64,000 bases of DNA, from the NCBI RefSeq assembly GCF_001548055.1, contig NZ_AP014724.1:930001-994000 (forward strand). Reading direction: 5' to 3'. Position numbers and translations under genes: made by a program. This DNA is from Sulfurospirillum cavolei. GTDB lineage: Bacteria > Campylobacterota > Campylobacteria > Campylobacterales > Sulfurospirillaceae. Under the pieces are notes generated by a model. That model searched no databases, had not been told where the DNA came from, and saw nothing but the letters and a program-made list of their open reading frames with translations. Positions 9,588 through 36,579 of the stretch are shown one piece after another (position 1 is the stretch's first letter; every line of letters begins with the position of its first letter).

Positions 9588-11473
9588 CTTTGAAATTTCC
9601 CCAGTTCGTTTTTAAGGCTTTCGGTCATCCCGTGAAGGTGTTCGGAAGCCTGAGAGACGTTTTTGATACTTTGTACGTTTTCGTGTGAAAGCGTGTTGAT
9701 CTTATCGATTTCTTCAACCATCTTCTTGACTTTTTGAGCATTGTCGATAAAGCGTCCGACCGATTCTTTAGTATGGTCGATCGTTTCAGCGATGATAGTA
9801 TCGATATAGCCCATACCTCCTTGAAGCTTTTGGGAAACTTCGGCTAAACGGTGAACTTCTTGCGTGTTGGACGCGATATCGCCGTTGGCGTCCAAGATCG
9901 ACTGAACGACGACGTTAATCGTCGCGTCGATTTCGACAAGGCTTTTTTGCGTACGCTCGGCTAGCTTTCGCACTTCATCGGCAACGACGGCAAAACCGCG
10001 TCCGTGCTCTCCCGCACGTGCGGCTTCGATGGCGGCATTGAGGGCTAAAAGATTGGTTTGATCGGCTATATCTTTGATGATAATCAGCACGTCTTTGATC
10101 TCATGGGTATTTTTACTGACGGCTTCAAGCTTTTGTGCCAAATAGTACTCTTTCTCAACGGTCGTTTTCATCGTCTCTTCGAGTTGTTCGACATGAAGCT
10201 TAACGTCTTGAATGTCGTGTTGCGTTTGCGTCAGCTTCTTTTTCGACTCTTGCGCTAAATCGACGGAATTTTCCAACGTTTTTGAAATGATTTCGCCGTC
10301 GTGTTTCGTTTGCGCGATAATCGACGATTCGGTGGCGACGTTGTGTAAGACGGCTTGTGCGGTGCGTGAGAGTTCCTGCGAAATCGAAGCATTTTCATGG
10401 CTGATGGATTTGGACGTCGTTACGATGTCGTGTAGCTTTTCGATAAACGTATTGATGTGTATCGTTACCTCCGCAAACTCGTCTTTTCCTTTCACTTCCA
10501 GTCGTTGGCGTAAATCCGCATCGTTGCTTGAAAGCGCGGACGCAATCGTTCCCAACCTGCTTAACGGGCGTAAAAGTGCTTGCGTCGTTATCACGATGAT
10601 GACGAGGGAAACGCACAGCATAAGCGTTGCGATGATCAGAAGCTTTTGAACTTGCGCGTTTAAAAAGGTATAGGAGTTGGCTTTGTCGTAAGCGATGCCG
10701 ATACGCCAGCCGCTTTTTTCAGACGTTGCGTAAGCGTACAATTTTTCTTTTCCTTCAAAAGAATAATCGGCGATACCCTCTTTTTGCTCTCCCAATTGTG
10801 CGCTTAACGAAGGTGCGATACTCTCAAGTGCGACGCCTAAATGCTTGGGATTCGGATGTGCCGCGATAATGCCTTTGGTATCTTGCAAAATGCCGTAACC
10901 GCCCTCAAAATCGATATGCGAAAGGGCATGCGTGAGGTTCTCGAGTAAAATATCCGTACCGATGACGCCGACGAATTTTTTCGTATCGTCAAAAATCGGG
11001 CTCATCACGGTGACCATCAAGCGCGTATCGGTTGCACCGCGGTAAACGTCGCTGATAGCGGTTTTTTGCGTCTGTTTGACGTGGAGATACCACGGGCGTT
11101 TTCGAGGGTCGTACCCTTGCGGACGTTGTTTTTCGCTTCCCCAAACCATATCGCCGTTCTCAAAGCCGACGTAGGTGTCAAGCGCACCGATGGTTTTAGT
11201 CGTTTCTTGAAGTTTTTGCACCATTTGATGGTAGCTAATGAGATCAATGTCGTGAAAAAAACGTGCGGCACTTTCGACGTCGTTTTGCTTCGTGGCGATC
11301 AGAAGATCGATATAGTCGGTAAACGAGCGAGCCGTAGAGTGCAGACTCGACGTGATCTGGCGAATACTGTTTTTTTTGGTGTCTTGGTAGCTAAAAAGCC
11401 CGAAAGAAAAGAGACATACGGCTATGAGTAGTGAGACGACAAGCATAATTTTCGTTTTAAATCGCACGGACAA
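9584..11473 (-). CDS. Methyl-accepting chemotaxis protein with periplasmic Cache sensor
   Basis: 629 residues: membrane helix near residues 8-28, a periplasmic dCache-type sensor (about 35-275) with the D-P-R-K-R-P-W-Y motif and I-G-T-D-I, a second helix near 280-300, HAMP, then the signalling coiled coil with [23 protein letters not shown]. dCache receptors bind amino acids, carboxylates or other small molecules; the ligand here is unknown. The start used is TTG at 11473, close behind AAAGGA; GTG at 11467 is an alternative. It is transcribed alone toward the convergent soluble receptor. Confidence 0.9.
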
Positions 11474-21648: not shown

Positions 21649-22317
21649 TTACATCGAAGGCACTTTGACCATATAGCCGATGCCTCGAATATTGACGATA
21701 AAATCTTCTTTTAAGTTGTTTTTGAGGCGGTTGATTTCCGCCCTGATCGTTGCGTCGTCGACGATCGTATCGGAATCTTCCCACACGTTTTCCCTGAACA
21801 TATCGTAGCTACAGACAAATCCTCGATTGTGGGTTAAAAATTTGATGATTTGCAGTTGTCGTTTGGAGAGCACTTGGGGCTCTTCGTGAAAGTAGAGCGT
21901 CATCGCGTCGCAGTCGAAACTGTAAGAGGCGGAGAGTCTTTTATGATGCATCTCTTTTTTGGCGGTTTTGGAGATGCGATCGATTCGAAGATTGAGTTCT
22001 TTGAGGTGAAACGGTTTTTTGAGGTAATCAAAACAGCCCAACTCAAACGCTTTGGAAATATCTTCGATATCGATGAGCGTCGAGATAAAAATGACGGGTG
22101 TGACGTTTTTTTGCGCATGCAATATCTCTAAAATCGTTAATCCGTCAATATTGGGTACGTTAATATCGAAAATGAGCAAGTCGAACTTCTCTTTCTCCAA
22201 AATACCCAAACAAACGTTGCCGTCTCGAACGGCTTTGATCGCGTGTCCGGATGTCGTGAGGTATTGCGTGATCGATTCATTTAGGATAATATCGTCTTCT
22301 AACAGTAAAATTTTCAT
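21649..22317 (-). CDS. OmpR-family response regulator
   Basis: 222 residues: receiver domain with the acidic pair E-D-D near residue 8, phospho-Asp in L-L-I-F-D-I-N-V-P (about 51) and conserved Lys in Y-L-K-K-P-F, then a winged-helix DNA-binding domain (about 130-222) ending G-I-G-Y-M-V. It overlaps the FIST kinase gene upstream by four bases (ATGA), so it is the kinase's partner. Its targets are unknown; the nearest large promoter region is the one in front of the aldehyde oxidoreductase operon, 2.4 kb away, and a link is only a guess. Confidence 0.92.
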   Translation of the reverse strand: MKILLLEDDIILNESITQYLTTSGHAIKAVRDGNVCLGILEKEKFDLLIFDINVPNIDGLTILEILHAQKNVTPVIFISTLIDIEDISKAFELGCFDYLKKPFHLKELNLRIDRISKTAKKEMHHKRLSASYSFDCDAMTLYFHEEPQVLSKRQLQIIKFLTHNRGFVCSYDMFRENVWEDSDTIVDDATIRAEINRLKNNLKEDFIVNIRGIGYMVKVPSM

Positions 22318-24200
22318 GCGTTCTCGATTTTAAATTGGTATGAAAAAGAGGTCACGTTCTCGTCTGAGAGCAACGTGATTTTCACATTTTCTTCCTTACA
22401 GATTCTTTTAACGAGATTGAGTCCGAGCCCAAAACCGTCTTGCGCCTGCTCTTCGCGGTAGTACTCTTCAAAGACTTTTTCGGGTTTTTGGATTTTGCGC
22501 GAATGCGATGCGATGCTGAAAAGATAACCGTCTTCTTTGACATGTACACCGACCGTGATTTTTTCGTTTTCAAACGTATATTTGATAGCATTGGTCAAAT
22601 TATTGTCGATAATACGTTGTAATTTCGTATCGTTAAATAAGATGAGTGCTTGCGCGCAATCGGTTTCAAAACAAAAAACGGATTTGGCTTTATCGGCGAC
22701 TTGGGCGAAAAAATCGATGCGGCAACGAACGTAATCGACTAAATCGATCGGACGTTTGGCGTAGTGAATTTGGTCTTGTTTGATGAGGTAACTGAGATCG
22801 TCGTACATTGAAAAGATGCTTTTGACCGCAACTTCGATATTTTCCAAATAAACGCTTTTGCCAAACTCCATTTCGTGTAGCTCGATACTGCTCATGATGA
22901 TGCTTAGGGGCGTATTCATCTCGTGAACGGTGTAACGCAAAAATTGTCGGTGCGACGCGAGAAGGTTTTTGGAGTAATTCATCTGTTTTTCAAGCCGCTT
23001 GGATTGTTTATCGTAATCGCGCGCGCTTTGTTCGATCAAATGGGTCAGCGACTCAATCGTTTTGGAATAAGGAGCACTTTTTTTGGTCTCTTCTTGATCG
23101 GGGATAGGGATAAAAGCGGGCTCTAAAGATTCGCTCAGCGCCACGACGGTAAGCGTTTGATTGAGCAGTTTGTTGTGACCGTTGTGGTGAAAAAATTCCG
23201 AATAAGTAAAAAACCCCGATGTGGGAGCCGTTTTGGAAAACGATCCAATCCCCATTTTAATTAAAAACGGCATAAATCGTCTGCGTGCCATACAGGAAAA
23301 GACGTAAAACGTTTCGACGTTAATCGTATGTAAATTTTTTAAAACTTCTATGGGGTCTTTCATCAGCGATTCCGCGTCCCCAAAGCCGATTCGCACTTGA
23401 TCGCCTTCTTCTAAATTGCCGCTAAAGCTGAGGCTTTCGTCTTCATGTTTCGCAATCACGGCGCGTGCCATGATAATGCCGTTTTTTTCCATAATAAGGG
23501 GAAATTCGATTCGGGAAAATTTACCTCCGAGGTATTTGTCGTAAAAAAAAGCGGCTTTCATATCGTCTATCTTATAGACGCGGTTGTTGTGAGCCTTTGT
23601 AATAGTATGCTTGAGTCCGACGGGTTTCCAGTCGAATTTATAATCGGTCGCGACATGTAAGCGGTCGGAATTCAACGAAACGCCGACGACGCCTTTGCTT
23701 AAAACGGTCGTTTGCGAGGAGATAAACGTTTGTTCAAACTTACCGTTATCGCCTGCCATACCGCCGCAAATCGGTATTGTCGCATCGTATGCTTCGACGC
23801 CTTTTAGAAACTCTTCGGCGTTCATATGCGTGCCGTCGGAGAAAAGAATCAATAATTTCGTGTTCGGCGTAATTAAATCGGAAGCCAACTTATAACCGCA
23901 TTGAAACGAGTCGTCATCGAGCGAATACGCCGTTTTCAGCAACGTCTGCTCAAAAACGCTGATCGAGATAACGCTTTGTTGCGTCGTAATACGCTCTCCG
24001 TAAATTTCGCCATCAGTCGTCGTTCCGATACAGATCGCCTGCGGCAAAGCAGAGGCAAAGAGATCGACCATCTTTTGCAGGACTTCTTGCCCTTGCCCGC
24101 AAAAGAGCTGTACGAGAATATTCTGTTCGTGACGTAAAGGCGTAAAATCGATAATAGTATCGAGCGAACCCGATTCATAGCAAAAATTGTATGTTTTCAA
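22314..24200 (-). CDS. Cytoplasmic sensor histidine kinase with FIST sensor domains
   Basis: 628 residues and no membrane helix. Residues ~25-370 form FIST_N and FIST_C domains (C-I-G-T-T-T-D-G-E-I, G-G-M-A-G-D-N-G-K-F, F-S-C-M-A-R-R near the end), proposed to sense small ligands such as amino acids. A coiled coil follows, then the dimerisation helix with the phospho-His in Y-T-V-H-E-M-N-T-P-L-S-I-I near residue 427, and the ATPase domain with N-N-L-T-N-A-I-K-Y and G-F-G-L-G-L-N-L-V. The start is TTG at 24200, preceded by AAGGAG at the right distance. It forms a two-component pair with the overlapping response regulator. Confidence 0.9.
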   Translation of the reverse strand: MKTYNFCYESGSLDTIIDFTPLRHEQNILVQLFCGQGQEVLQKMVDLFASALPQAICIGTTTDGEIYGERITTQQSVISISVFEQTLLKTAYSLDDDSFQCGYKLASDLITPNTKLLILFSDGTHMNAEEFLKGVEAYDATIPICGGMAGDNGKFEQTFISSQTTVLSKGVVGVSLNSDRLHVATDYKFDWKPVGLKHTITKAHNNRVYKIDDMKAAFFYDKYLGGKFSRIEFPLIMEKNGIIMARAVIAKHEDESLSFSGNLEEGDQVRIGFGDAESLMKDPIEVLKNLHTINVETFYVFSCMARRRFMPFLIKMGIGSFSKTAPTSGFFTYSEFFHHNGHNKLLNQTLTVVALSESLEPAFIPIPDQEETKKSAPYSKTIESLTHLIEQSARDYDKQSKRLEKQMNYSKNLLASHRQFLRYTVHEMNTPLSIIMSSIELHEMEFGKSVYLENIEVAVKSIFSMYDDLSYLIKQDQIHYAKRPIDLVDYVRCRIDFFAQVADKAKSVFCFETDCAQALILFNDTKLQRIIDNNLTNAIKYTFENEKITVGVHVKEDGYLFSIASHSRKIQKPEKVFEEYYREEQAQDGFGLGLNLVKRICKEENVKITLLSDENVTSFSYQFKIENA

Positions 24201-24669
24201 TCCGTGTCTCCTTATCGTTACCTCATTACCTTAAAATGACCCGATGGCTTTTGGAAGATAAACGCGCTCATTATAAAGTGAAAAAGATAAGGTTTTGCTT
24301 GTCACAATATCACACATCGGTCATTTTTTTATCCGGAAGAGGGTGAAATAGCCCTTTTTGCTATATTCATGCTACAGTCATAGTATATGATCTTTAGTAA
24401 CAAAACTTAATAAACAAGATTAAGAAAAAACATAGCTTACGGGAGGTTAAAAAGTCATCTACATCACATGTACATTGTAAAATGTATATGCATATGGCGG
24501 GTTTAACGCGGGTGAGTTTTTTAATTATCTATCCTATTTAATATGCAAAAAGAGCATGTTAACGTATCGATCGGATTTTTAGAAAACTTATGGATACAAA
24601 TATGTGATTTTTGCATAATTCTTCACATGTAAGGAAAATGCAAAGACTCTATTGACAAGGGGAAACAAC
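24201..24669. promoter_or_regulatory. 469-bp divergent regulatory region before the aldehyde oxidoreductase operon
   Basis: No gene fits here. Between 24466 and 24495 three palindromic elements are packed together: ACATGT, TACATT-GTAA-AATGTA and ATATGCATAT. Directly after comes TGGCGGGTTTAACGC, which has the GG-N10-GC spacing of a sigma-54 promoter (GG at 24496) but a poor -12 box. Another one-sided palindrome copy, TCACATGTAAGG, lies near 24624. The promoter of the operon is probably here, but I cannot fix its start point. Confidence 0.5.
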
Positions 24670-27393
24670 ATGTTAAAGAAAACATTGATTATTAACGGGG
24701 TGAAAACGACGTTGGTTGCGGATATGGAAGAAAAACTATCCGACGTCTTACGAAAACAACTGAAACTTACCGGTACAAAAGTAGGTTGTAACAGCGGCGA
24801 ATGCGGTACGTGTAGTGTTATTCATAACGGTAAGGTCGTCAGATCGTGTCTTTTAAAAATGAAAAAATTGGAAGAGTACGATGAAGTCATTACGATCGAA
24901 GGCGTAGGTACGAAAGACAAACTTCACCCGCTTCAAGTTTCGTGGATGGTTCACGGCGCGGCACAATGCGGTTATTGTACTCCCGGATTTATCGTTTCGG
25001 CTAAAGCACTTCTCGATCAAAACGTCAATCCTACCCGTGAAGAAGTTCGTGATTGGTTCCAAAAAAATAAAAACCTCTGCCGTTGTACGGGATACATTCC
25101 TTTGGTCGATGCGGTTATGGATGCAGCAAAATTAATGCGCGGCGAAATTCAAGTCAAAGATATTTGGAAACAACTCCCAGACGGTGCTTCTTTAGTCGGT
25201 TCTGAATTTATCCGTCCTTCCGCACTTGCCAAAGTTATGGGTACGTGGGATTTCGGTGCGGATTTAGGACTTAAACTTCCTGAAAATACCTTACATGCTA
25301 AAATCGTTCAAGCCGAAGTTTCTCATGCTAATATTCTCTCCATCGATACCGAAGAAGCGAAAAAAGTTCCGGGCGTCGTTGCCGTTTTGACCTATAAAGA
25401 CGTCAAAGGAACAAACCGCATTAACGGTTTGGCGTTCCCTACCAACAAAGGCGACGGTATGGACAGACCGATCTTGAACGATACCAAAATCTTCCAATAC
25501 GGCGATGCGATTGCAATCGTTTTAGCAGAAAACGAGAAAGCAGCACATGCGGGTGTCGATAAAGTCAAAGTTGAATTAGAGGTTTTACCGGCTTATATGA
25601 ATGCTCCTGACGCGATGGCGGACGATGCGATTGAAATTCACCCCGGTACTCCAAACGTCTATTTTACTAACCATATCAGCAAAGGTTCCGAGACGGCTCC
25701 GATCATGGAAAAAGCTCCGTATGTCGTTGAAGACAGTTTCTATACACAACGCCAACCGCACTTACCGCTTGAGCCGGATGTCGGCTTTGCGTACGTTGAC
25801 GATGAGGGTAAACTTATCATCCATTCAAAAAGTATTGCGCTTCACTTCCACGCTTTGATGATTGCCGAGGGTGTGGGTATGAAAGCCGAGAACGTTTATA
25901 TTGTTCAAAACAACACGGGTGCGACGTTCGGTTATAAATTTAGTCCGACGATGGAAGGCTTGCTCGGCGTTGCGACGATGGCGACGGGAAGACCGGTTTA
26001 TCTTGAATTCAATATGAAACAACAAATCACTTATACGGGTAAACGTTCACCTTTCTGGACGACGATGAAAATGGCGGCCGATAAAGAGGGTAAAATCTTG
26101 GCGTTAGAGTCTGATTGGAGCGTCGATCACGGTCCATACTCAGAATTCGGCGACTTGTTAACGCAACGCGGTTTCCAATTCGGCGGTGCGGGTTATATGA
26201 TCCCGAACATTCGCGGTAACGGACGTACCGTTTGTACCAACCACGGTTGGGGTTCAGCATTCCGTGGATACGGCGCACCTGAAATTATGTTCCCTTCTGA
26301 AGTGTTGATTGATGAATTAGCGGAAAAAGTCGGTATGGATCCGTTTGAATTTAGATACAAAAATATCTACAGACCGGGCGATACGACACCGACGGGATGC
26401 CAACCGGACGTTTATTGTTTGGAAGAGCTCTTTGAAAAATCCAAACCGGTTTATGAGTTAGCTAAAAAAACGGCTAAAGAGAAAAATGCGAACGCCGCTC
26501 CTAATAAAAAATACGGCGTGGGCGTTTCCGTGAATATCTACGGATGCGGTTTGGACGGTCCGGACTCTTCTGAAGCATGGGCTGAAATTACGAAAACGGG
26601 TGTAGCGGTAGGTAACTCATGGGAAGATCACGGTCAAGGTGCGGATATCGGAACATTGACGTATGCACATGAAACGCTCAAACCGTTGAACCTTAGACCG
26701 GAACAAATCGATCTTGTGCTTAACGATATGACCAAAACACCTAATAGCGGACCAGCCGGCGGTAGTCGTTCTAACCTTGTCACCGGTAATGCCACGGTTG
26801 TTGCATGCCGCAACTTACTTGAAGCGTTGAAAAAACCGGACGGTACGTATCGAACGTATGATGAAATGGTTGCCGAAGGAAGAGAACTTAAATATATGGG
26901 TAAATGGACGGCTCCATGTACGGATACGCCTCCGACCGACGGACAAGGAAATCCGTTTGCGGGTTACATGTACGGCGTGTGCGTTGCCGAAGTCGAAGTC
27001 GATACGTCAACGGGTAAAACGAACGTTGAGAAAATGATGTTAGCTTCCGACGTCGGAACGATCATCAACAAACTCGTCGTCGACGGACAAATGTACGGCG
27101 GATTGGTACAAGGTATCGGTTTGGCGTTAACGGAAGATTTCGACGATTTGAAAAAACATACGACCTTGACCGGATGCGGTATTCCTAAAATCAAAGACGT
27201 TCCGGACAATATTGAGTTAATGTACACCGAGTATCAACGACCGAACAACTTCTTAGGTGCTTCGGGTGCGGGTGAAATGCCTCTTGCGGCTCCTCACGCG
27301 GCGATTATCAACGCCATTTACAATGCGTGCGGCGCACGGGTAACACACTTACCGGCACGTCCTGAGAAAGTTCTAGCGGCTTTGAAAAAATAG
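24670..27393 (+). CDS. mop: Aldehyde oxidoreductase, molybdenum hydroxylase of the Desulfovibrio Mop type
   Basis: 907 residues, the length I recall for D. gigas Mop, and key positions keep the same numbers: Cys40/45/48/60 and Cys100/103/137/139 bind two [2Fe-2S] clusters, and Glu869 in G-A-S-G-A-G-E-M-P is the catalytic base beside molybdenum. The substrate-channel motifs G-A-T-F-G-Y-K-F-S-P and S-A-F-R-G-Y-G-A-P are intact. It oxidises aldehydes to acids with molybdopterin cytosine dinucleotide, has no FAD domain and no signal peptide, so it acts in the cytoplasm. ATG 24670 has GGGGAAA upstream; an earlier in-frame codon would break the numbering. It heads a ten-gene operon of maturation and electron-transfer genes. 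Confidence 0.95.
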   Translation: MLKKTLIINGVKTTLVADMEEKLSDVLRKQLKLTGTKVGCNSGECGTCSVIHNGKVVRSCLLKMKKLEEYDEVITIEGVGTKDKLHPLQVSWMVHGAAQCGYCTPGFIVSAKALLDQNVNPTREEVRDWFQKNKNLCRCTGYIPLVDAVMDAAKLMRGEIQVKDIWKQLPDGASLVGSEFIRPSALAKVMGTWDFGADLGLKLPENTLHAKIVQAEVSHANILSIDTEEAKKVPGVVAVLTYKDVKGTNRINGLAFPTNKGDGMDRPILNDTKIFQYGDAIAIVLAENEKAAHAGVDKVKVELEVLPAYMNAPDAMADDAIEIHPGTPNVYFTNHISKGSETAPIMEKAPYVVEDSFYTQRQPHLPLEPDVGFAYVDDEGKLIIHSKSIALHFHALMIAEGVGMKAENVYIVQNNTGATFGYKFSPTMEGLLGVATMATGRPVYLEFNMKQQITYTGKRSPFWTTMKMAADKEGKILALESDWSVDHGPYSEFGDLLTQRGFQFGGAGYMIPNIRGNGRTVCTNHGWGSAFRGYGAPEIMFPSEVLIDELAEKVGMDPFEFRYKNIYRPGDTTPTGCQPDVYCLEELFEKSKPVYELAKKTAKEKNANAAPNKKYGVGVSVNIYGCGLDGPDSSEAWAEITKTGVAVGNSWEDHGQGADIGTLTYAHETLKPLNLRPEQIDLVLNDMTKTPNSGPAGGSRSNLVTGNATVVACRNLLEALKKPDGTYRTYDEMVAEGRELKYMGKWTAPCTDTPPTDGQGNPFAGYMYGVCVAEVEVDTSTGKTNVEKMMLASDVGTIINKLVVDGQMYGGLVQGIGLALTEDFDDLKKHTTLTGCGIPKIKDVPDNIELMYTEYQRPNNFLGASGAGEMPLAAPHAAIINAIYNACGARVTHLPARPEKVLAALKK

Positions 27394-27411: not shown

Positions 27412-27440
27412 CTCAACAAGGCACACCGTGCCTTGTTGAG
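27412..27440 (+). terminator. Long intercistronic hairpin after mop
   Basis: CTCAACAAGGCAC-ACC-GTGCCTTGTTGAG is a perfect 13-bp stem with a three-base loop, 19 bases past the mop stop. The following sequence CTTTGTGTTT is only moderately U-rich. It probably lowers transcription into the downstream genes or protects the mop mRNA end, giving more enzyme than maturation factors. Confidence 0.7.
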
Positions 27441-27474
27441 CTTTGTGTTTAACGCGATAAAGAGGAGATCAAGA

Positions 27475-29841
27475 ATGGATTTAGATCAATTATTAGAAAT
27501 TAGCAATCAATGTATTCATTCAGAGCCTCCCGTATGCGTTGCATCATGTCCAGTTCATATGGACGTGATCGCATTTGTATCTGAAGTTGAAAAAGGTAAT
27601 TTTTCCGGTGCCTATAAAATGATGGAAAGTAAAATTCCTCTTAGTCGGCTTATCGGAAAGATTTGCGATCATCCCTGTGAAAAAGCATGCGTTAGAAGTC
27701 ATGCGGGCGGAAGTATCCGCATCGGTGAACTTGAAAAAAGCGTGGTTACTTTTGGCTATAGCGCACCTAAAAAACCGTTACTTTTGCCTAAGAACAAAGG
27801 CAATATCGCCGTTATCGGCGGCGGATTAAGCGGATGCGTCGCGGCAATCGAGTTGGATAAAAAGGGCTATAAAGTCGCTCTTTTTGAAAAGTCGAACCGT
27901 TTAGGCGGAAGGTTATGGGAGTATGTTTCCAAGGGTTTGGAAGCGCGCGAAATTGAAGAAGAGCTCGGCATGATCGAGCAAAAAGGCATTGCGGTGCATT
28001 ATGGCGTCGAAGTGCTTGAAGAAGATTTACCTCGTTATTTGGAAACGTACGATGCGATCTATTTAGGTGCACGCACGTGGAGCAAATCCTATACCGTCGA
28101 TCCGCACTCGTTTCAATCGGAAATTTCAGCTCTCTTTATCGGCGGAGGCATTCAAAATCCAAACGCTTTAATGATCGAATCGGCAAGTTCCGGGAAGCGC
28201 GCCGCCGTATCGATCGATCGTTATATAACCCAATCTTCGATGCTGGCTTCAAGGGAGCGCGAAGGCGTTTTCGAGACGAAATTGCACTATGCGACGGATC
28301 AGGTCGCACCGCTTGCAAGCGTGCCTTTAAGCGCGTCGATCTATTCTCAAGACGAAGCGGCGGCAGAGGCGAGTCGTTGTCTTAAATGCCAATGCGACGC
28401 TTGTATTAAAGCGTGCGTTCATATGCAACGATTTTCCATCACTCCCGATAGTTATATCCGCAGTATTTGCCATAACGAACGCATCGTTTTAGGCACGCGT
28501 CGAGCAAATTTGATGATCAATTCTTGTACCGAGTGCGGCTTGTGTAAAGCCGTCTGTCCCGTGGGCATCGGTATGGCGGATATTATCCATGCGACGCGCG
28601 AAAGTATGGTCAAACGCAACAAAATGCCGCTTTCGGCGCATGATTTTGCACTCAAAGACATGGCATTTAGCCAAAGCGACTATTTTTCGTTGGTTCGTAA
28701 ACAGCCGAGCAAAGAGGCGTCAAAAGACCTTTTTTACTACCCGATGATTGCATTTTCGGCGTACGCGAGAGGTTTGTACAAAGGTTCGGGAAAAACGGGC
28801 TATCTTTTTTATCCCGGATGTCAACTCAGCTCGACGCACACCGATTATATCGGCTCGATTTACAAACATCTCGTCGGAGTGATTAAAGAAAAAGATGCTA
28901 TGAGCGACGTCGGGCTCTTTTTAGGATGTTGCGGCGCACCTGCCGATTGGGCGGGAAGAGGGGATTTGATGCACGACAACGTCGAAAAGATACGCCAAAC
29001 ATGGGAAGCAGAGGGTCGTCCGACGTTTATTTTGGCGTGTTCGAGTTGTGCTTCTACGTTTGCCAAGTATTTGCCGATGATTCAAACCGTTTCGTTATGG
29101 GAAATTTTCGATACGTACGGTTTGCCCGAAGTGGATATTAAAAAAGGCAAGCGCGAGCTTTGCATTCACGATGCGTGCGCAATAAGAGATAATCCCAAAA
29201 TTCACGAAAGTATCCGCAATATCGTCAAGACTTTAGGGTACAGCGTTCAAGAACTCGAATACTCCAAGGAGAAGACGAAGTGTTGCGGTTACGGCGGTTT
29301 GGTTGCTTGCGCCAATCCCGAACAAGCCGAGGAGTTTGCGGCGGATCGAATCTGTGAGAGTGATCCGGACGTGTTGGTTTATTGCGCGATGTGTAAAGAT
29401 ATGTTGGTCAAGGGCAACAAGAGGGCCTATCATATTTTAGACATTATCTACGCCAACGAAATCAACCAAGAGACGCCTCAAAAAATGCCTACGCTTTCGG
29501 ATCGTCAAAACAACCGCAAACGTTTGAAACGACAACTCTTAAAAGAGATATGGAATGAAGAAGAGGAGGGTGCGATGGATCCGACGTATGATTTTGCACT
29601 GCATATTTCAGATGAGATCACGGCATTGATGGAGAAACGATTTATCTTGCTCGGCGACGTGGAAAAAGTGGTGGCAAACTCTCTTTCGCATCAAGAGCGA
29701 TTTTTCAATCCGAAGAGTTCGGATTATCTTGCGCGTCTTAGGATTCAAAACGTTACTTATTGGGTTCGTTATGAAGAATCGGGACGCGATATTACGGTTA
29801 AAGACGCGTACATGCACCGCATGGAAGTCGTGGAAGGCTGA
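27475..29841 (+). CDS. Flavin/Fe-S oxidoreductase with CCG domains, partner of the aldehyde oxidoreductase
   Basis: 788 residues from ATG 27475 behind AGAGGAG (an upstream TTG lies inside the hairpin). Order of domains: N-terminal Fe-S module (Cys13, 21, 25, 64, 68, 72) as in GltD/DPYD-like proteins; Rossmann FAD/NAD site A-V-I-G-G-G-L-S-G near residue 120; a 4Fe-4S pair (C-L-K-C-Q-C-D-A-C, then C-T-E-C-G-L-C-K-A-V-C-P); two HdrB/GlpC-type CCG units (G-C-Q ... G-C-C-G-A-P; K-C-C-G-Y-G-G); and a C-terminal ~90-residue domain. It corresponds, from memory, to DVU1558, named as a pyridine nucleotide-disulfide oxidoreductase/dicluster protein. It likely passes electrons from Mop to another carrier. 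Acceptor unknown. Confidence 0.88.
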   Translation: MDLDQLLEISNQCIHSEPPVCVASCPVHMDVIAFVSEVEKGNFSGAYKMMESKIPLSRLIGKICDHPCEKACVRSHAGGSIRIGELEKSVVTFGYSAPKKPLLLPKNKGNIAVIGGGLSGCVAAIELDKKGYKVALFEKSNRLGGRLWEYVSKGLEAREIEEELGMIEQKGIAVHYGVEVLEEDLPRYLETYDAIYLGARTWSKSYTVDPHSFQSEISALFIGGGIQNPNALMIESASSGKRAAVSIDRYITQSSMLASREREGVFETKLHYATDQVAPLASVPLSASIYSQDEAAAEASRCLKCQCDACIKACVHMQRFSITPDSYIRSICHNERIVLGTRRANLMINSCTECGLCKAVCPVGIGMADIIHATRESMVKRNKMPLSAHDFALKDMAFSQSDYFSLVRKQPSKEASKDLFYYPMIAFSAYARGLYKGSGKTGYLFYPGCQLSSTHTDYIGSIYKHLVGVIKEKDAMSDVGLFLGCCGAPADWAGRGDLMHDNVEKIRQTWEAEGRPTFILACSSCASTFAKYLPMIQTVSLWEIFDTYGLPEVDIKKGKRELCIHDACAIRDNPKIHESIRNIVKTLGYSVQELEYSKEKTKCCGYGGLVACANPEQAEEFAADRICESDPDVLVYCAMCKDMLVKGNKRAYHILDIIYANEINQETPQKMPTLSDRQNNRKRLKRQLLKEIWNEEEEGAMDPTYDFALHISDEITALMEKRFILLGDVEKVVANSLSHQERFFNPKSSDYLARLRIQNVTYWVRYEESGRDITVKDAYMHRMEVVEG

Positions 29842-30050: not shown

Positions 30051-30770
30051 GTGAACGTCTACGAAAGCCCTTACATGCAAGAAGCCACGGGCGATACGTT
30101 ACGTCCCGGAGGCTTCACGCTTACCGAAGAAGCGGTTCGCTTTTGCGCTTTGAGCAAACGCGATCGTATTTTGGACGTAGGATGCGGTATGGGCGCGACC
30201 GTTTCGTATTTGTATCATGCTTACGGTATCAAGGCGGTCGGCATCGATCCTTCCAAAAAACTGCTCGAAAAAGCTCGCCGAAATAATCCTTTCGCTTCGT
30301 TCGTTCAAGGGTTTGGGCATGATCTACCCTTTGCCGACGAAACGTTCACGTGCGTTTTTGCCGAGTGTACCTTGTCGTTAATGCATGATTTGCAAGGCAG
30401 CTTAGACGAAATCTATCGCGTTTTGGCGCACGGAGGATGGTTCGTGCTAAACGACGTGTATGCAAAAAATCCCGAAGCCCTCAAGGCGATGGATAACTTT
30501 TCCGTTACCTCGTGTATGCGGGGAATGCACGATTTAGCATCGTTGCAACAGGCGTTGCAACGTGCCGGTTTTGATGTGATGTTGGTTGAAGATTGCAGTG
30601 GGTTATTGAAAGAGTTGATGGTAAAAATCATCTTTTCGCATGGCTCGATGAGTGCGTTTTGGAGCAAAACGATGGAAGACAAGACGGCACAAACGTCTTG
30701 TTCGTTTGACCAACGTATTACGCAATGCAAACCGGGCTATTTTAGAATGATCGTGAAAAAAGGAGACTAA
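30051..30770 (+). CDS. trsM: SAM-dependent methyltransferase of the Mop operon (TrsM / DVU_1556-like)
   Basis: 239 residues from a GTG directly after the previous stop, with GGAGG eight to twelve bases upstream. Class I methyltransferase fold: motif I I-L-D-V-G-C-G-M-G, acidic end of strand 2 in V-G-I-D-P-S, motif with H-D-L-P-F-A-D-E-T-F, and E-C-T-L-S-L-M-H-D. Closest by wording are ubiE/arsM-like enzymes. The C-terminal third (F-W-S-K-T-M-E-D-K, then Q-C-K-P-G-Y-F) is peculiar to the family. Always-neighbouring radical SAM TrsS suggests joint modification of one substrate, unknown to me. Symbol from family naming I recall, not verified. Confidence 0.82.
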   Translation: MNVYESPYMQEATGDTLRPGGFTLTEEAVRFCALSKRDRILDVGCGMGATVSYLYHAYGIKAVGIDPSKKLLEKARRNNPFASFVQGFGHDLPFADETFTCVFAECTLSLMHDLQGSLDEIYRVLAHGGWFVLNDVYAKNPEALKAMDNFSVTSCMRGMHDLASLQQALQRAGFDVMLVEDCSGLLKELMVKIIFSHGSMSAFWSKTMEDKTAQTSCSFDQRITQCKPGYFRMIVKKGD

Positions 30771-30774
30771 AGCA

Positions 30775-31230
30775 ATGGATGATTTATCGCTACGATTATT
30801 TCGCCTTTCCTCGGCATGGTTTTGCTGTGCGCAAATCATGTATAAGCTTGCGCTTGAAGACGAGGGCATCGAAAACGACGATTTGATACGCGCCGCACAA
30901 GGGTTGTGCCGAGGAATCGCCGATACGCAACAAACATGCGGCGTTTTAAGCGGCGGTATCGGCGTTTTGGGATTGTACGGCGCTAAGGGCAAAGAAGAAG
31001 AGAGCACCCAAGAGAATTTCAAAGCAATGTTAGACGAATTTCATACGTGGTTTACGACGGAATTTGGCTCAAGCCAATGTGCGGTGCTTATCGGAGAGAG
31101 GGATTTTCACGGTCTCGATCAAAGCTACAAGCCCATTTGCGCGGGAATGATCCAAAAAGCGTACGTCAAAGTATACGAAATTTTACAAGAGCACGGTTAC
31201 GAATACGGCAATAGGGAGTCGATGCCATGA
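30775..31230 (+). CDS. C-GCAxxG-C-C family protein (DVU_1555-like)
   Basis: 151 residues, mainly helical. Cysteines at 17/18, 45, 55 and two more in the second half (S-S-Q-C-A and P-I-C-A-G-M) follow the spaced-cysteine plan of the C_GCAxxG_C_C family; the central motif here reads T-C-G-V-L-S-G-G. Such proteins often sit beside molybdenum or redox enzymes and probably bind a metal or cluster. It starts four bases after the methyltransferase and overlaps the radical SAM gene by four. Function unknown. Confidence 0.8.
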   Translation: MDDLSLRLFRLSSAWFCCAQIMYKLALEDEGIENDDLIRAAQGLCRGIADTQQTCGVLSGGIGVLGLYGAKGKEEESTQENFKAMLDEFHTWFTTEFGSSQCAVLIGERDFHGLDQSYKPICAGMIQKAYVKVYEILQEHGYEYGNRESMP

Positions 31231-32570
31231 CGTTAAGCCCTTTGGTGCATACGCAAAGTTTATGTCCTATCTGCTTACGCTCGGTGGAGGCTTTTATCGT
31301 TCAAGAAGACGATAAAGCGTTCATGCTCAAAACTTGTTTGGAGCACGGAGCGTTTGAGACGATCGTGTGGCGCGGTAAAACACCGATGCACGAGTGGGTA
31401 CGTACCAAAGAGCGAGCTTTTATCAACCATCCGATCACGCCGATCGAAAAAGGATGCCCGTTTGATTGCGGGCTGTGCAGTGCACACCGACAACATACAT
31501 GTACGGCACTGATCGAAGTGACGAAACGCTGCAATTTAAAGTGCCGTTTTTGCTTTGCCGATGCCTTGGACGCGCCTAACGAAGATCCGAGCTTAGAGCA
31601 GTTGCGCTTTCAGTTTGAGAGTATTTTCAAAGTTTCCGGTGCGTGCAATATCCAACTCTCGGGAGGCGAGCCTAGCGTACGGAACGATTTGGACGTGATT
31701 GTTCGCATGGGGCGGGAAGCGGGTTTTTCGTTTATTCAACTCAATACCAACGGTATCCGCTTGGCGCAAGACGAGGCTTACGTCAAAGCTCTTAAAGAGG
31801 CGGGGCTAAGCTCCGTCTTTTTACAATTTGACGGCGTCGACGATGCGATTTACCGACATTTGCGAGGACGTGCGCTTTTTGAGGTGAAATGCCAAGCCAT
31901 CGAAAATTGCAAAAAATACGGTATCGGCGTCGTGTTGGTTCCGACGATCGTACCGAAAATCAATGATCACCATATCGGTGAAATTGTTCGTTTTGCGATA
32001 GGTCGTTCTCCGGCCGTCAGAGGCGTGCATTTTCAGCCCGTGAGTTATTTCGGACGGATTCCTAATCCTCCCAAAGACGAAGATCGTATCACTCTACCCG
32101 AAGTGATGGATGCCCTTTGCGAACAAACCGACGGTATGATCTCTTTGGCGAGCCTACAGCCTCCCGGATGTGAAAATGCGCTTTGTTCGTTTAACGGCAA
32201 TTTTCTGATCGAAGAGGGAGTGTTAAAACCCGTAACGAAACGCGCGGCATGTTGTTCGCCAGAGAGCGAAAAAGCCGAAGTCGGAGCCGCGAAAGCTAAA
32301 GCGTTCGTGGCACGAAATTGGTCGTATCAAAAACAGACGCCAAGCGAAACGTTCTCCGATTGGGACAAAATTCTTAGTGCCATTCAAAACAACTCTTTTA
32401 GCCTTTCGGGTATGGCGTTTCAAGACGTGTGGAACGTCAATTTAGAGCGTATTCGGGATTGTTGCATTCACGTCTCCACCGCGGAGGGAAAGTTGATTCC
32501 TTTTTGCATGTACAATCTGACCAATACCCGAGGCGAATCTTTATATCGCGACGTAAAGAGGCTTTCATGA
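31227..32570 (+). CDS. trsS: Radical SAM protein of the Mop operon (TrsS-like)
   Basis: 447 residues. The radical SAM cluster motif is C-N-L-K-C-R-F-C (Cys102/106/109), followed by L-S-G-G-E-P for SAM binding. Before it stand C-P-I-C-L (Cys13/16) and G-C-P-F-D-C-G-L-C (Cys77/81/84) with Cys92, which could hold an extra cluster or zinc. The P-F-D-C-G-L-C to C-N-L-x-C layout resembles MJ0619/Tes-type enzymes. The C-terminal part has C-E-N-A-L-C-S-F and R-A-A-C-C. From memory, family members in other species are selenoproteins; here the frame holds no in-frame TGA, so this is an all-Cys form. It makes a 5'-deoxyadenosyl radical; the substrate is unknown. Confidence 0.85.
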   Translation: MTLSPLVHTQSLCPICLRSVEAFIVQEDDKAFMLKTCLEHGAFETIVWRGKTPMHEWVRTKERAFINHPITPIEKGCPFDCGLCSAHRQHTCTALIEVTKRCNLKCRFCFADALDAPNEDPSLEQLRFQFESIFKVSGACNIQLSGGEPSVRNDLDVIVRMGREAGFSFIQLNTNGIRLAQDEAYVKALKEAGLSSVFLQFDGVDDAIYRHLRGRALFEVKCQAIENCKKYGIGVVLVPTIVPKINDHHIGEIVRFAIGRSPAVRGVHFQPVSYFGRIPNPPKDEDRITLPEVMDALCEQTDGMISLASLQPPGCENALCSFNGNFLIEEGVLKPVTKRAACCSPESEKAEVGAAKAKAFVARNWSYQKQTPSETFSDWDKILSAIQNNSFSLSGMAFQDVWNVNLERIRDCCIHVSTAEGKLIPFCMYNLTNTRGESLYRDVKRLS

Positions 32571-33868
32571 ACGTTACGCCGCTTGAATCTTGGATCCAAG
32601 AACGCATGCATCTTGCACGGCCGAGTCAAGAAGCCCTTCGTGCGTACCAGCTCGAAAAAGTGCAAACAACGCTTCGGTACGCCCAAAGTAAGAGCCGTTT
32701 TTATCGCGAACGTTTGGGCGAAATCGATTTAGATGCGATCGATTCTTTCAAAGCGTTCGAAACGATCGCTTTTACGACGCCTGATGATATTCGGCGCAAC
32801 GCTTACGATTTTTTGTGCGTTCCTACGCATGAGATCGAACGCATCGTGACCTTAAATACGTCGGGTACGACCGGCGATGAAAAGCGTCTTTTTTTTACGC
32901 ACGAAGATTTGGAAACGACGATCAATTTTTTTCATTACGGCATGCGTTGTTTGGTCGACGAGCGCGATAAAGTGATGGTTTTGCTTCCAGGCCCTTCGTT
33001 TGCAAGTATCGGCGATTTGTTGAAAAAAGCACTTCAACGAAGCGGTATCGAGTGCATCGTTCACGGCGTTTTAGACGATGTCGAAGCCGCTGCGGCATGC
33101 ATTTTTCAAAACGGCATTACCGCAATCGTGGGAATTCCGATGCAAGTATCGTATCTTGCGCGCATGAAAAAAGAACTGTTTGACACGCACATCAAAAAAG
33201 TGCTTTTAAGTACGGATTACGTTGCCGACGCGCTTGTAAAAAGCCTTTCTCGTAACGGTACATGTCAGGTTTTTAACCATTACGGTATGACGGAGATGGG
33301 GTATGGCGGAGGCGTCGAGTGCGCTTGTTTGAGCGGTTATCATTTACGGGAAAACGATCTTTATTTTGAAATCGTCGATCCGATGACGGGCAAAGTCGTT
33401 GAAGACGGCACGTACGGGGAAGTCGTTTTTACAACCTTAAACCGCCAAGCAATGCCGCTTATTCGCTACAAAACGGGCGATAGGGCGCGTTTTTTGGTTG
33501 AGCCTTGTGCGTGCGGTACGTTTTTGCGTCGAATGGAAAAAGTGCGCGGACGTATCGAAAATACCTTAAGCGTTGAAGGGCACGAGATAACGCTCAGAGA
33601 TTTGGACGAAATCTTTTTGGCATACAAATCGCTCATGGATTATCGCGTCGAATGTTATGATCCTAACCGCTTACATGTGCGTTTGGTTTTGGATAAAAAC
33701 ACGGATGCAAAGGCCTTTCAAAATGCCCTCAAACAAGAGTTACATGTACGTTTTCAATCGAAGTTCGATTTTGAGATCGAAATCGAAGAAGACGATAGAT
33801 CTTCTAAAATAACCCGAAGTATGATTAAACGAAAAATACACGATTGCAGACAAGGAGCGAAGCGATGA
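32567..33868 (+). CDS. PaaK-like adenylate-forming enzyme (DVU_1553-like CoA ligase)
   Basis: 433 residues from the ATG that overlaps the previous stop (ATGA). Similar in length and layout to phenylacetate-CoA ligases: phosphate loop T-S-G-T-T-G-D-E-K-R, the H-Y-G-M-T-E-M-G-Y-G-G-G block, Y-K-T-G-D-R-A-R hinge Asp, and a small C-terminal domain that could carry the usual catalytic Lys (K-I-T-R-S-M-I-K-R). It should activate a carboxylate as acyl-AMP and possibly move it to CoA or a carrier. Since the enzyme at the head of the operon makes carboxylic acids from aldehydes, the product acid is a candidate; activating a cofactor precursor is the other. Confidence 0.82.
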   Translation: MNVTPLESWIQERMHLARPSQEALRAYQLEKVQTTLRYAQSKSRFYRERLGEIDLDAIDSFKAFETIAFTTPDDIRRNAYDFLCVPTHEIERIVTLNTSGTTGDEKRLFFTHEDLETTINFFHYGMRCLVDERDKVMVLLPGPSFASIGDLLKKALQRSGIECIVHGVLDDVEAAAACIFQNGITAIVGIPMQVSYLARMKKELFDTHIKKVLLSTDYVADALVKSLSRNGTCQVFNHYGMTEMGYGGGVECACLSGYHLRENDLYFEIVDPMTGKVVEDGTYGEVVFTTLNRQAMPLIRYKTGDRARFLVEPCACGTFLRRMEKVRGRIENTLSVEGHEITLRDLDEIFLAYKSLMDYRVECYDPNRLHVRLVLDKNTDAKAFQNALKQELHVRFQSKFDFEIEIEEDDRSSKITRSMIKRKIHDCRQGAKR

Positions 33869-34899
33869 AAACGATTGTCGAACATATAATAGAGAGCTTA
33901 AACGAACAACACGAAATCGTTACGGCAACCATTTTACACAAAAGCGGATCGGCCCCTAGAGAAGCGGGCACGAAGATGGTTATTCGCAAAGATTCCTCGA
34001 TTGAAGGGACGATAGGCGGAGGAACGCTCGAAGCGATGGCGATACGATTGGCTCCGGAAATTTTTCAAAGTAAGCGCAGTGCGATCGAAGACATCGAATT
34101 GACCGATGAAGACGCAAAAGCCGCCGGCATGGTGTGCGGAGGAGAGGTTAGCGTGCTTTTGGAACATATCGACGCTTTGGATATTCCGCAGTTCAATATT
34201 TACCATAAAGCCCAAGAGCTTAAGGCTTCGGGCATTGATTTTATCATGATCACGAATATTACGCAAAGCAGTAAACGCATCGGCGGAAAGCACAAATGGA
34301 TATGCACGCAAAACGAGCTTTTCGGTGCGGACGATAACGAAGTTCAAAGCATCGCAAAAGAACTTCGCGAACACTTTTACCGGATTAAATTTCACCTTTA
34401 CGTCGGTAAAAGCCGTTATATGATCGAACCTTTTTACGCGATGGATCGGCTCTACATTATCGGTGCGGGGCACGTTTCCCAACAAATCGCGTTGCTTTCC
34501 AAAAGTTTGGGTTTTTACACCGTCGTGCTGGACGATCGAGAAGCATTTGCCAATAAAGAGCGCTTTGCGAGTGCCGACGAAATTCACGTCGTCTCCTCTA
34601 GCTATGAAGATTTAGCGCAAACAGTGGGCATTCCGCCGAACAGTTACATCGTTATCGTAACGCGCGGCGTCGATAAAGTCGTGTTGGAGCAAGCGTTACG
34701 CATGAATGCGAAGTACATCGGTATGATCGGTAGCAAGACCAAACGCAATTACGTGTACGATTTGCTCTTGCACGAAGGCTTTTCGCAACAAGAACTCGAT
34801 GCGGTACATTGTCCGATCGGCGTGAGCATCAATGCACAAACGCCCGAAGAGATCGCCATTAGTATCGTTGCCGAATTAACGCTAGTCAAAAGGGCGTAA
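33865..34899 (+). CDS. xdhC: XdhC/CoxI-type molybdenum hydroxylase maturation factor
   Basis: 344 residues from ATG 33865, again overlapping the previous stop (ATGA). It has the N-terminal XdhC motifs S-G-S-A-P-R-E-A-G-T-K-M and G-T-I-G-G-G-T-L-E, G-M-V-C-G-G-E-V, then a Rossmann domain with Y-I-I-G-A-G-H-V-S and the C-terminal Y-I-G-M-I-G-S-K-T-K-R. XdhC binds molybdenum cofactor and, with a sulfurase, gives it the terminal sulfido ligand before insertion into the hydroxylase. It is therefore the part of this operon with the best-understood job: finishing Mop. No sulfurase gene is in the operon. Confidence 0.92.
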   Translation: MKTIVEHIIESLNEQHEIVTATILHKSGSAPREAGTKMVIRKDSSIEGTIGGGTLEAMAIRLAPEIFQSKRSAIEDIELTDEDAKAAGMVCGGEVSVLLEHIDALDIPQFNIYHKAQELKASGIDFIMITNITQSSKRIGGKHKWICTQNELFGADDNEVQSIAKELREHFYRIKFHLYVGKSRYMIEPFYAMDRLYIIGAGHVSQQIALLSKSLGFYTVVLDDREAFANKERFASADEIHVVSSSYEDLAQTVGIPPNSYIVIVTRGVDKVVLEQALRMNAKYIGMIGSKTKRNYVYDLLLHEGFSQQELDAVHCPIGVSINAQTPEEIAISIVAELTLVKRA

Positions 34900-34901
34900 C
34901 C

Positions 34902-36008
34902 ATGGCAAAAGATACCGTTGCCGCTTTAATTATCGCGGCGGGATACTCTTCGAGAATGCACGATTTTAAACCCTTACTCTCTTTTGAAAAAACCAATGCG
35001 ATCAAGCGTCTCGTTCAAACCTATGAAACGTTTGGGATCGAGCATATTTACGTGGTAGTAGGATATTTAAAAGAAGAAATTATCGCAACGCTTAGGGGCT
35101 ATAACGTTCATATCGTCTACAATGAGGCGTTCGATCAAGGGATGTTTAGCTCGATTCAAAAGGGCATAAAAGCGATGGACGAAACCGTAGAAGCGTTTTA
35201 CATGAATCCCGTGGATATTCCGCTCATTAAAACGCAAACGCTGGAGCGTTTATACGAGGCGTACGTTCGTGAAAAAAAAGGGGTTGTCTATCCGGTCTTT
35301 TTAGGGCGTAAAGGTCATCCGCCTTTGATCGATCGAAAGTATCAAAATGCGATTCTTTCAAGCAAAGGCGAGGGCGGTTTGAAAAACGTTTTGGAAACGT
35401 TGGAGCACGATGCTTTACATGTCGACGTATGCGACCAATCGATTTTGATGGATATGGACGAAAAAGAGGATTATTTTGCTCTTTTACGTTACGATGCGAT
35501 GAACGTTCCTACCAAAGAGGAGTGCTTGGCGATCATGCGTTTAAACGACGTTCCCGAACCTATTATCAAACATTGCGAAGCGGTCGGTAAAACGGTATTG
35601 GCACTGTTGAACGAAATTTCACTATGCCATCTCGTGTTTGACAAAAACGCACTTTTAGCGGCGGCGTATTTGCACGACATCGCACGGCAAGAAAAAGATC
35701 ATGCCAAGGTCGGTGCGGAAAAGCTGTGTGCCATGGGCTATGAAACGATCGGCGATATGATCGCGACACATATGGACATTACGGTGGATCGCAAAGCACC
35801 GTTAAGCGCGAACGAGTTATTGTTTTTAGCCGATAAACTGGTGTGCGAAACAGAAGTGTGCGGGTATGAAAAACGTTTTGAAAAGGCACTGAAAAAATGC
35901 GAAGGAAATCTCGAAGCACAACGCCATATCGCCCAACGTTTGGAAGCCGTTAAAATGATTATCGCTAAGATCGAACAATGTACATGTAAGGTTTTTGCTT
36001 ATGGTTGA
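34902..36008 (+). CDS. MobA/MocA-like nucleotidyltransferase fused to an HD domain (DVU_1551-like)
   Basis: 368 residues in two parts. Residues 1-~195 are a MobA-like nucleotidyltransferase with L-I-I-A-A-G-Y-S-S-R-M and K-P-L-L, then N-P-V-D-I-P-L-I and G-R-K-G-H-P-P-L, as in MocA, which adds CMP to molybdopterin to make the cytosine dinucleotide form that Mop needs. Residues ~205-368 are an HD hydrolase domain with A-Y-L-H-D-I-A-R and a downstream H-M-D-I. The same fusion is, from memory, in DVU1551. It could both make and trim the dinucleotide cofactor. It begins two bases after xdhC. Confidence 0.87.
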   Translation: MAKDTVAALIIAAGYSSRMHDFKPLLSFEKTNAIKRLVQTYETFGIEHIYVVVGYLKEEIIATLRGYNVHIVYNEAFDQGMFSSIQKGIKAMDETVEAFYMNPVDIPLIKTQTLERLYEAYVREKKGVVYPVFLGRKGHPPLIDRKYQNAILSSKGEGGLKNVLETLEHDALHVDVCDQSILMDMDEKEDYFALLRYDAMNVPTKEECLAIMRLNDVPEPIIKHCEAVGKTVLALLNEISLCHLVFDKNALLAAAYLHDIARQEKDHAKVGAEKLCAMGYETIGDMIATHMDITVDRKAPLSANELLFLADKLVCETEVCGYEKRFEKALKKCEGNLEAQRHIAQRLEAVKMIIAKIEQCTCKVFAYG

Positions 36009-36579
36009 CACGGTGTATCTCTTGCGTCACGGGCATATCGATAACGGAGACGAAAAGCGGTATTTGGGGCAAACCGACCTTGGACTCGATGCTTTAGGTA
36101 TCGAGCAAGCGTACGCTTTACGCGAGGCGTTTCAATCGATTCGTATCGACGCCGTCTATACCAGCCCTCTTAAACGTTGCGTCAAAACGGCGCACATTAT
36201 TTCGCAAGAGTATCGTATCGTCGAAGCGTTTCGCGAGATCGATATGGGAGCGTGGGAAAATAAGACGATGGCGGAGATTCGATCACACGATCCGGAATCG
36301 TATGCGAAAAGAGGGGAAGATTTGGAATATTTTACGCCGCCTTGCGGCGAAAATTTTCACGCCGTGGCTCTGAGGGCAAAAGAAGCTTTCGACGCAATTA
36401 CCTACGAAGCGATTCATTCGAGCGTGATTATCGTTGCGCATGCGGGGGTCAATCGCGTGCTGCTTTCAACGCTCTTAAACCTTCCGATTCAAGAGATGAT
36501 GCGCATCGATCAACCCTATGCCTGCGTCAATCGTTTAACGAGGCATCAGGGAACGTGGCGGTACGCAAGAGGTTTTTAA
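36001..36579 (+). CDS. Histidine phosphatase superfamily protein, last gene of the Mop operon
   Basis: 192 residues from ATG 36001. The R-H-G motif with the phospho-acceptor His is Y-L-L-R-H-G-H-I, then Y-T-S-P-L-K-R-C, E-I-D-M-G-A-W-E and the second catalytic His in V-A-H-A-G-V-N-R. This is the CobC/phosphoglycerate-mutase type of small phosphatase. It overlaps the preceding gene by eight bases, and its ribosome-binding site TAAGG is the end of a near-palindrome copy (GTACATGTAAGG). Substrate is unknown; a phosphorylated intermediate made by the operon is likely. A hairpin at its stop ends the operon. Confidence 0.85.
   Translation: MVDTVYLLRHGHIDNGDEKRYLGQTDLGLDALGIEQAYALREAFQSIRIDAVYTSPLKRCVKTAHIISQEYRIVEAFREIDMGAWENKTMAEIRSHDPESYAKRGEDLEYFTPPCGENFHAVALRAKEAFDAITYEAIHSSVIIVAHAGVNRVLLSTLLNLPIQEMMRIDQPYACVNRLTRHQGTWRYARGF

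Follow-up and report, generated by a model that had tools for sequence, protein, structure and literature searches.

The Trs gene cluster of Sulfurospirillum cavolei: a Tes-type radical SAM enzyme, its Hdr-like partner and a possible dedicated redox cofactor

A catalogued nine-gene cluster

We analyzed a 64,000-nucleotide stretch of the Sulfurospirillum cavolei genome (RefSeq assembly GCF_001548055.1, contig NZ_AP014724.1, positions 930,001 to 994,000 of the forward strand; hereafter the window) with a focus on a cluster of nine genes. In order, these encode a molybdopterin-dependent aldehyde oxidoreductase (AOR), the Hdr-like protein DIC, the methyltransferase TrsM, a C-GCAxxG-C-C redox protein, the Tes-type radical S-adenosylmethionine (SAM) enzyme TrsS, a PaaK-like ligase, an XdhC-type maturation factor, a MocA-HD fusion and a histidine phosphatase (Table 1). 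Eight of the nine exceeded their own curated NCBIfam cut-offs in profile searches, and the families are already present in NCBIfam (NF045646 and NF045663-NF045669) as a cluster of the DVU_1551-1559 type. There is accordingly nothing unusual about the window copy of this catalogued but uncharacterised cluster. What makes it of interest is the system as a whole, which is widespread in anaerobes and includes a radical SAM enzyme of the type that joins inert carbon atoms. The same gene set, in a nearly fixed order, was recovered in the majority of the 80 loci compared, which belong to Campylobacterota, Bacillota, Thermodesulfobacteriota, Fusobacteriota and Chloroflexota, with the PaaK-like ligase in nearly all of them and the histidine phosphatase recurring as the usual last gene. 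Several recurrent neighbor clusters of these loci were set aside as antisense or wrong-frame open reading frames.

A first-pass annotation, made from the sequence alone, had described the methyltransferase, C-GCAxxG-C-C and radical SAM genes as adjacent and translationally coupled, and this description holds. TrsM has a GTG start with GGAGG upstream and is separated from the C-GCAxxG-C-C gene by 4 nucleotides, while the latter overlaps trsS, and trsS the ligase gene, by a 4-nucleotide ATGA in each case. Since all three products exceed curated cut-offs and the gene set recurs across the loci, their grouping is not due to chance. The annotation did not point out that these families have NCBIfam entries. 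It knew of no described reaction, and none was found in the literature searched: no function was given there for TrsS, TrsM or the DVU genes, and there was only a row in a table of selenoproteins for TrsS, list entries for the DVU AOR and a single mention of DVU1558.

Within Campylobacterota, 20 of the 23 other sampled members of the window's genus had TrsS above the cut-off. Among additional sampled members of the family it was two of 20, and the 56 additional members of the order had none. Campylobacterota TrsS proteins are nested inside those of Bacillota in the tree (support 100/98 for the set with loci L014 and L022), which suggests that the window-type cluster was acquired from a clostridial donor.

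Table 1. Coordinates of the cluster features in the window, with profile scores where available
Feature	Position	Strand	Family and evidence
AOR, molybdopterin-dependent aldehyde oxidoreductase	24652..27393	+	NF045668, 1610 bits vs cut-off 1100
Strong hairpin (13 pairs) between AOR and DIC	27412..27440	+	consensus scan only
DIC	27433..29841	+	NF045663, 972 bits vs 530; Pfam Fer4_20, Fer4_17, CCG
DIC C-terminal piece, DVU_1557-like	29575..29841	+	start approximate
TrsM, class I methyltransferase, DVU_1556 family	30051..30770	+	NF045667, 257 bits vs 155
C-GCAxxG-C-C redox protein, DVU_1555 family	30775..31230	+	NF045669, 153 bits vs 103
TrsS, Tes-type radical SAM enzyme	31227..32570	+	NF045646, 677 bits vs 490, profile 2-441 of 441
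PaaK-like AMP-dependent ligase, DVU_1553 family	32567..33868	+	NF045666, 474 bits vs 300
XdhC-type AOR maturation factor	33844..34899	+	NF045664, 417 bits vs 350
MocA-like molybdenum cofactor nucleotidyltransferase fused to HD domain, DVU_1551 family	34902..36008	+	NF045665, 427 bits vs 315
Histidine phosphatase, CobC/alpha-ribazole phosphatase-like	35995..36579	+	152 bits, just below ribazole_cobC cut-off 163

TrsS and TrsM compared with enzymes of known function

TrsS is an MJ0619/Tes-type enzyme, as had been proposed from the order of its cysteines. By sequence, its closest solved structure is GDGT-MAS/MJ0619 (7TOL), and in the fold search its predicted model (predicted local distance difference test, pLDDT, of 90) matched 7TOM with a Z-score of 45.4 (root mean square deviation 2.1 Å for 398 residues at 39% identity); MoaA followed as the second-best protein with a Z-score of 21.7. 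The seven cysteines noted earlier between residues 77 and 109 (C77, C81, C84, C92, C102, C106, and C109) were confirmed in exactly that number, and all are invariant among 81 aligned TrsS proteins. The published metal ligands of GDGT-MAS (PMC9433317) map residue by residue onto TrsS: the rubredoxin-like site C13-X2-C16-X20-C37-X2-H40 has identical spacing, C77/C81/C84/H87 correspond to the [4Fe-4S]N ligands, C102/C106/C109 form the radical SAM CX3CX2C cluster, and Met396 is equivalent to Met439, the labile ligand of the C-terminal cluster. Met396 is kept in 80 of 80 proteins of the main TrsS set; one exception, a Val, was seen in L134. C320, C412 and C427 are likewise invariant in the TrsS set and, judging from their conservation, are likely the cysteines of the [4Fe-4S]C cluster.

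GDGT-MAS couples lipids through a carbon-sulfur cluster intermediate (PMC9433317), and bacterial Tes homologues have been proposed for branched glycerol dialkyl glycerol tetraethers (PMC8941075). Together with the structural match, this could mean that TrsS joins lipid tails as Tes does, yielding bacterial membrane-spanning lipids. We regard this as the least probable of the explanations considered, as TrsS reaches only 370.7 bits against the Tes family NF045702 (curated cut-off 450), the sequence alignment gives it a shorter C-terminal region, and it adjoins methyltransferase, ligase and Hdr-like protein genes, i.e., redox and ligase partners with no lipid genes among them. Furthermore, Tyr459, strictly conserved in the archaeal enzyme, is Val416 in the window TrsS and is not a Tyr in any TrsS row tabulated, although this residue was not essential for activity by mutagenesis. 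As regards the long hydrophobic lipid pockets of GDGT-MAS, TrsS has about 70 residues between the two aligned blocks, vs. 115 in the archaeal enzyme. Another difference is the extra invariant Cys92, an Ile in MJ0619; it was rejected as a marker of pairing with a methyltransferase, as Tes-like proteins with no TrsM gene next to them have it too (L130, L144, and L147). In one further locus (L081, TrsS at 10001-11410), an in-frame TGA stands at the position of window Cys315 (PPG-TGA-ENALCSF) and probably encodes selenocysteine. A catalytic role of this residue was considered and set aside, the position being variable (Ala, Ser, or Arg in other proteins).

The predicted TrsM model (pLDDT 94.7) retrieved generic small-molecule methyltransferases in the fold search; ArsM was not among the best 50 matches listed, which excludes nothing. 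C106 is kept in 74 of 74 TrsM proteins and C155 in 61 of 65, and both align, in the same sequence context, with the two arsenite-binding cysteines of four annotated ArsM proteins, which we take to be C174 and C224 in CmArsM numbering. The pair was aligned in every relative checked, namely in TrsM of the window, of D. gigas, of the loci without AOR described below, of a haloarchaeon and of Mycolicibacterium. This opens the possibility of metalloid or chalcogen chemistry, in which TrsM would methylate cysteine-bound arsenic, selenium or tellurium and TrsS would attach the product to carbon, as in the ArsM/ArsS synthesis of arsenosugars. ArsM families are the best matches of TrsM after its own family, and pairs of a radical SAM enzyme with ArsM are known for organoarsenicals. 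We nevertheless consider it quite improbable, given that TrsM carries a Glu where ArsM has an Asn before C106 and scores 64 bits against an arsenite methyltransferase cut-off of 263 (NF008823), so that by score it is not an ArsM, that the operon showed no arsenic genes, and that the ArsS family is not among the 25 best NCBIfam matches of TrsS.

The C-GCAxxG-C-C protein encoded between the two enzymes has four invariant cysteines (C18, C55, C102, and C122). Outside the cluster, a Tes-like radical SAM gene adjoins a TrsM-like methyltransferase gene on a Mycolicibacterium plasmid (L131, 3959-6327) and on a haloarchaeal plasmid (L132, 3902-6180), and the pairing of these two enzyme types therefore extends past the AOR cluster.

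DIC, AOR and the loci without AOR

DIC consists of a GltD-like N-terminal cluster domain (Fer4_20), a flavin adenine dinucleotide domain, a 4Fe-4S dicluster and two CCG (HdrB-type) motifs; its start is likely the ATG at about 27475 rather than the listed TTG. Its C terminus in the window is the fused counterpart of a separate DVU_1557-like protein of about 90 amino acids found in loci without AOR. The CCG cysteines are retained in HdrB, which is catalytic; in EtfD, which is not, one of them is swapped for Thr and a His is used (PMC13083937). The ten cysteines of the two DIC motifs (five each) are invariant in 87 of 87 DIC proteins, the EtfD-type Thr occurs in none of them and the EtfD-type His in only one (L122); DIC is therefore HdrB-type by sequence and may act on a disulfide. 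With the HdrABC/EtfD proteins it shares the combination of flavin domain, dicluster and two CCG motifs, the cysteines following HdrB and not EtfD; it differs in that its hosts are bacteria.

The co-occurrence of these genes was compared in 198 Desulfobacterota and 348 Bacillota genomes. TrsS was above the cut-off in 27 Desulfobacterota genomes, and all 27 also held DIC or its CCG half, which was otherwise seen, below the family cut-off, in only three TrsS-negative genomes. AOR was present in 21 genomes of this phylum, all of them TrsS-positive, hence in 21 of the 27. The strictest partner of TrsS is thus DIC and not AOR; the first-pass annotation had put the molybdoenzyme at the center. Among Bacillota, 21 of 22 TrsS-positive genomes contained AOR, and the 22nd shows an AOR at a contig end. 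Four Bacillota genomes had AOR above the cut-off without TrsS above its own: two have TrsS at 456-470 bits, one has a partial AOR, and in one (G497) TrsS was not found among the four candidates scored per genome.

DIC and TrsS occur almost always in a 1:1 ratio per genome, and a small DVU_1557-like protein, free or fused, is found with TrsS also where AOR is missing. This would agree with a post-translational modification of a cluster protein (DIC, its DVU_1557-like part or the C-GCAxxG-C-C protein) by TrsS, TrsM and the ligase. Such a modification is improbable, as the PaaK-like ligase suggests a free acid as substrate and TrsS aligns with GDGT-MAS, not with the SPASM peptide maturases.

Six TrsS-positive Desulfobacterota genomes were AOR-negative. 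In one of them (L121) the AOR is cut by the contig end; the other five (L122-L126) have no AOR near TrsS and form a single clade in the tree (100/100 support). These loci retain TrsM, TrsS and a CCG protein with both motifs, four of the five also have the ligase, and L122, L123 and L126 each contain an open frame for the DVU_1557-like piece. They represent a second Trs architecture, for which no description was found in the literature. In two of them a 238-residue hydrophobic protein with no Pfam match is encoded between the CCG protein and TrsM (L123, 2010-2726; L125, 11468-12184). The remaining neighbors vary: some loci have a corrinoid activase or corrinoid protein and tripartite ATP-independent periplasmic (TRAP) transporters, others the two subunits of an HgdBC-type 2-hydroxyacyl-CoA dehydratase together with the ATPase of that enzyme, or else a MaoC-like protein. 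Separately, in L088 and L090 AOR is not near TrsS and is encoded elsewhere in the same genomes.

Neighborhoods of this kind could indicate a substrate-specific pathway without any cofactor, in which an alcohol, aldehyde or imported acid would be oxidized by AOR or another enzyme, activated with coenzyme A by the ligase, and rearranged or methylated by TrsS and TrsM. In addition to the ligase found in nearly all loci and the transporters, dehydratase, MaoC-like protein and corrinoid activases of the AOR-free loci, this would account for the iron alcohol dehydrogenases that often occur near AOR-type loci, where a sigma-54 DhaR-like activator is also found; the AOR of D. vulgaris is listed under ethanol metabolism. 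On the other hand, the catabolic neighbors differ between loci in which TrsM, TrsS and the CCG protein are constant, unlike what one fixed pathway would produce, and the window cluster has no adjacent transporter of that kind. Radical SAM enzymes of the TrsS type are also not known to serve in bulk catabolism. Altogether, we rate such a pathway as a serious but rather unlikely possibility.

The window AOR is homologous to Mop of D. gigas and D. desulfuricans (1319 bits to 1dgj and 1226 bits to 1sij). A 254-residue stretch of the crystallised Desulfovibrio gigas AOR has a 100% match in genome G697, where the AOR gene is followed by those for DIC, TrsM, the C-GCAxxG-C-C protein, TrsS, the ligase and XdhC; the crystallised enzyme, which belongs to the same family as the window AOR, is therefore encoded in a Trs cluster (L150, 10918-19901, and L151). 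This bears on the idea that the TrsS/TrsM pair matures AOR or modifies its pterin, for which one could cite the presence of TrsS in every AOR-positive Desulfobacterota genome and the XdhC and MocA maturation genes of the same operon. The D. gigas AOR, however, carries an ordinary molybdopterin cytosine dinucleotide, seen at 1.28 Å (PMC10223205), which makes a modified pterin unlikely. The five AOR-free loci retain the module as well, and the role of MJ0619 as a class D radical SAM pterin methylase acting on C7/C9, the precedent for such a reaction, was not corroborated by later investigators and has been replaced by lipid coupling (PMC9433317). The Trs genes are thus unlikely to modify the AOR pterin, unless they are silent when AOR is made, and we hold this explanation to be very improbable. 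Of the earlier suggestion that the two SAM enzymes carry out a two-step synthesis of a small molecule or a modified pterin, the small molecule stays plausible and the pterin finds no support.

A flavin partner of the D. gigas AOR has been searched for, and in the passages seen of PMC10223205 flavodoxin is modelled and put forward as a putative partner, with electron transfer in vitro and no mention of DIC. The cluster ties this long-studied enzyme to a flavin/Hdr-type protein encoded directly downstream, and this gene order makes DIC a candidate for the missing partner. Both the question of the partner and that of the product of the module become testable in Desulfovibrio.

Proposed role of the module and signals around the cluster

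Our preferred explanation, put forward tentatively and with less than even confidence, is that TrsM, the C-GCAxxG-C-C protein, TrsS and the ligase supply DIC, the proposed electron acceptor of AOR, with a redox cofactor of its own that may contain sulfur. In its favor, every TrsS-positive genome of the Desulfobacterota set also holds DIC or the CCG half of it, yet some lack AOR. Three independent hints lead to a cofactor with a soft atom, namely the HdrB-type clusters of DIC, the ArsM-type cysteines of TrsM and the carbon-sulfur intermediate known from the homologue of TrsS. A bolder version, in which TrsS and TrsM make a new bacterial low-molecular-weight thiol (or soft-atom) cofactor that resembles coenzymes M and B, serves DIC as its disulfide substrate and forms the true acceptor system of AOR, is doubtful. 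Modification of a cluster protein, metalloid chemistry, AOR maturation and lipid coupling are all less likely than either a cofactor or a substrate-specific pathway.

We infer the nature of such a cofactor, the order of steps, the disulfide chemistry and the electron flow from AOR to DIC as follows. The four-gene module would produce one small molecule bearing a thiol or another soft atom. TrsS would abstract a hydrogen from an unactivated carbon, and the C-terminal [4Fe-4S] cluster of the enzyme would capture the carbon radical through a C-S bond, in the manner of GDGT-MAS. TrsM would transfer a methyl group to an acceptor atom bound by C106 and C155, and the ligase would activate a carboxylate. 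AOR would oxidize an aldehyde, and the electrons would move through its pair of [2Fe-2S] clusters to DIC. There, two clusters of the noncubane type would reduce (or form) the disulfide of the cofactor.

Several observations weigh against this proposal. The nearly constant 1:1 ratio of DIC to TrsS gives no sign of a cofactor shared among several DIC proteins, the neighbors of the five AOR-free loci fit a catabolic pathway equally well, CCG proteins such as EtfD may pass electrons without disulfide chemistry (PMC13083937), and the D. gigas AOR does transfer electrons to flavodoxin in vitro (PMC10223205).

Regarding expression signals, Rfam and tRNA scans of the window gave no matches, the sigma-54 promoter pattern occurred at chance level, and so did sigma-70 promoter-like and terminator-like sites in a consensus scan. 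The hairpin between AOR and the likely DIC start, which is followed by a T-rich stretch, has the longest stem, though counts of such sites in the region are at chance level; it is possibly an attenuator or an RNA-processing element and could lower the expression of the downstream genes relative to AOR. Just upstream of the cluster and divergent from it lie the genes of a sensor histidine kinase with a FIST domain and of a response regulator (21649-24200), and this pair may regulate the AOR cluster.

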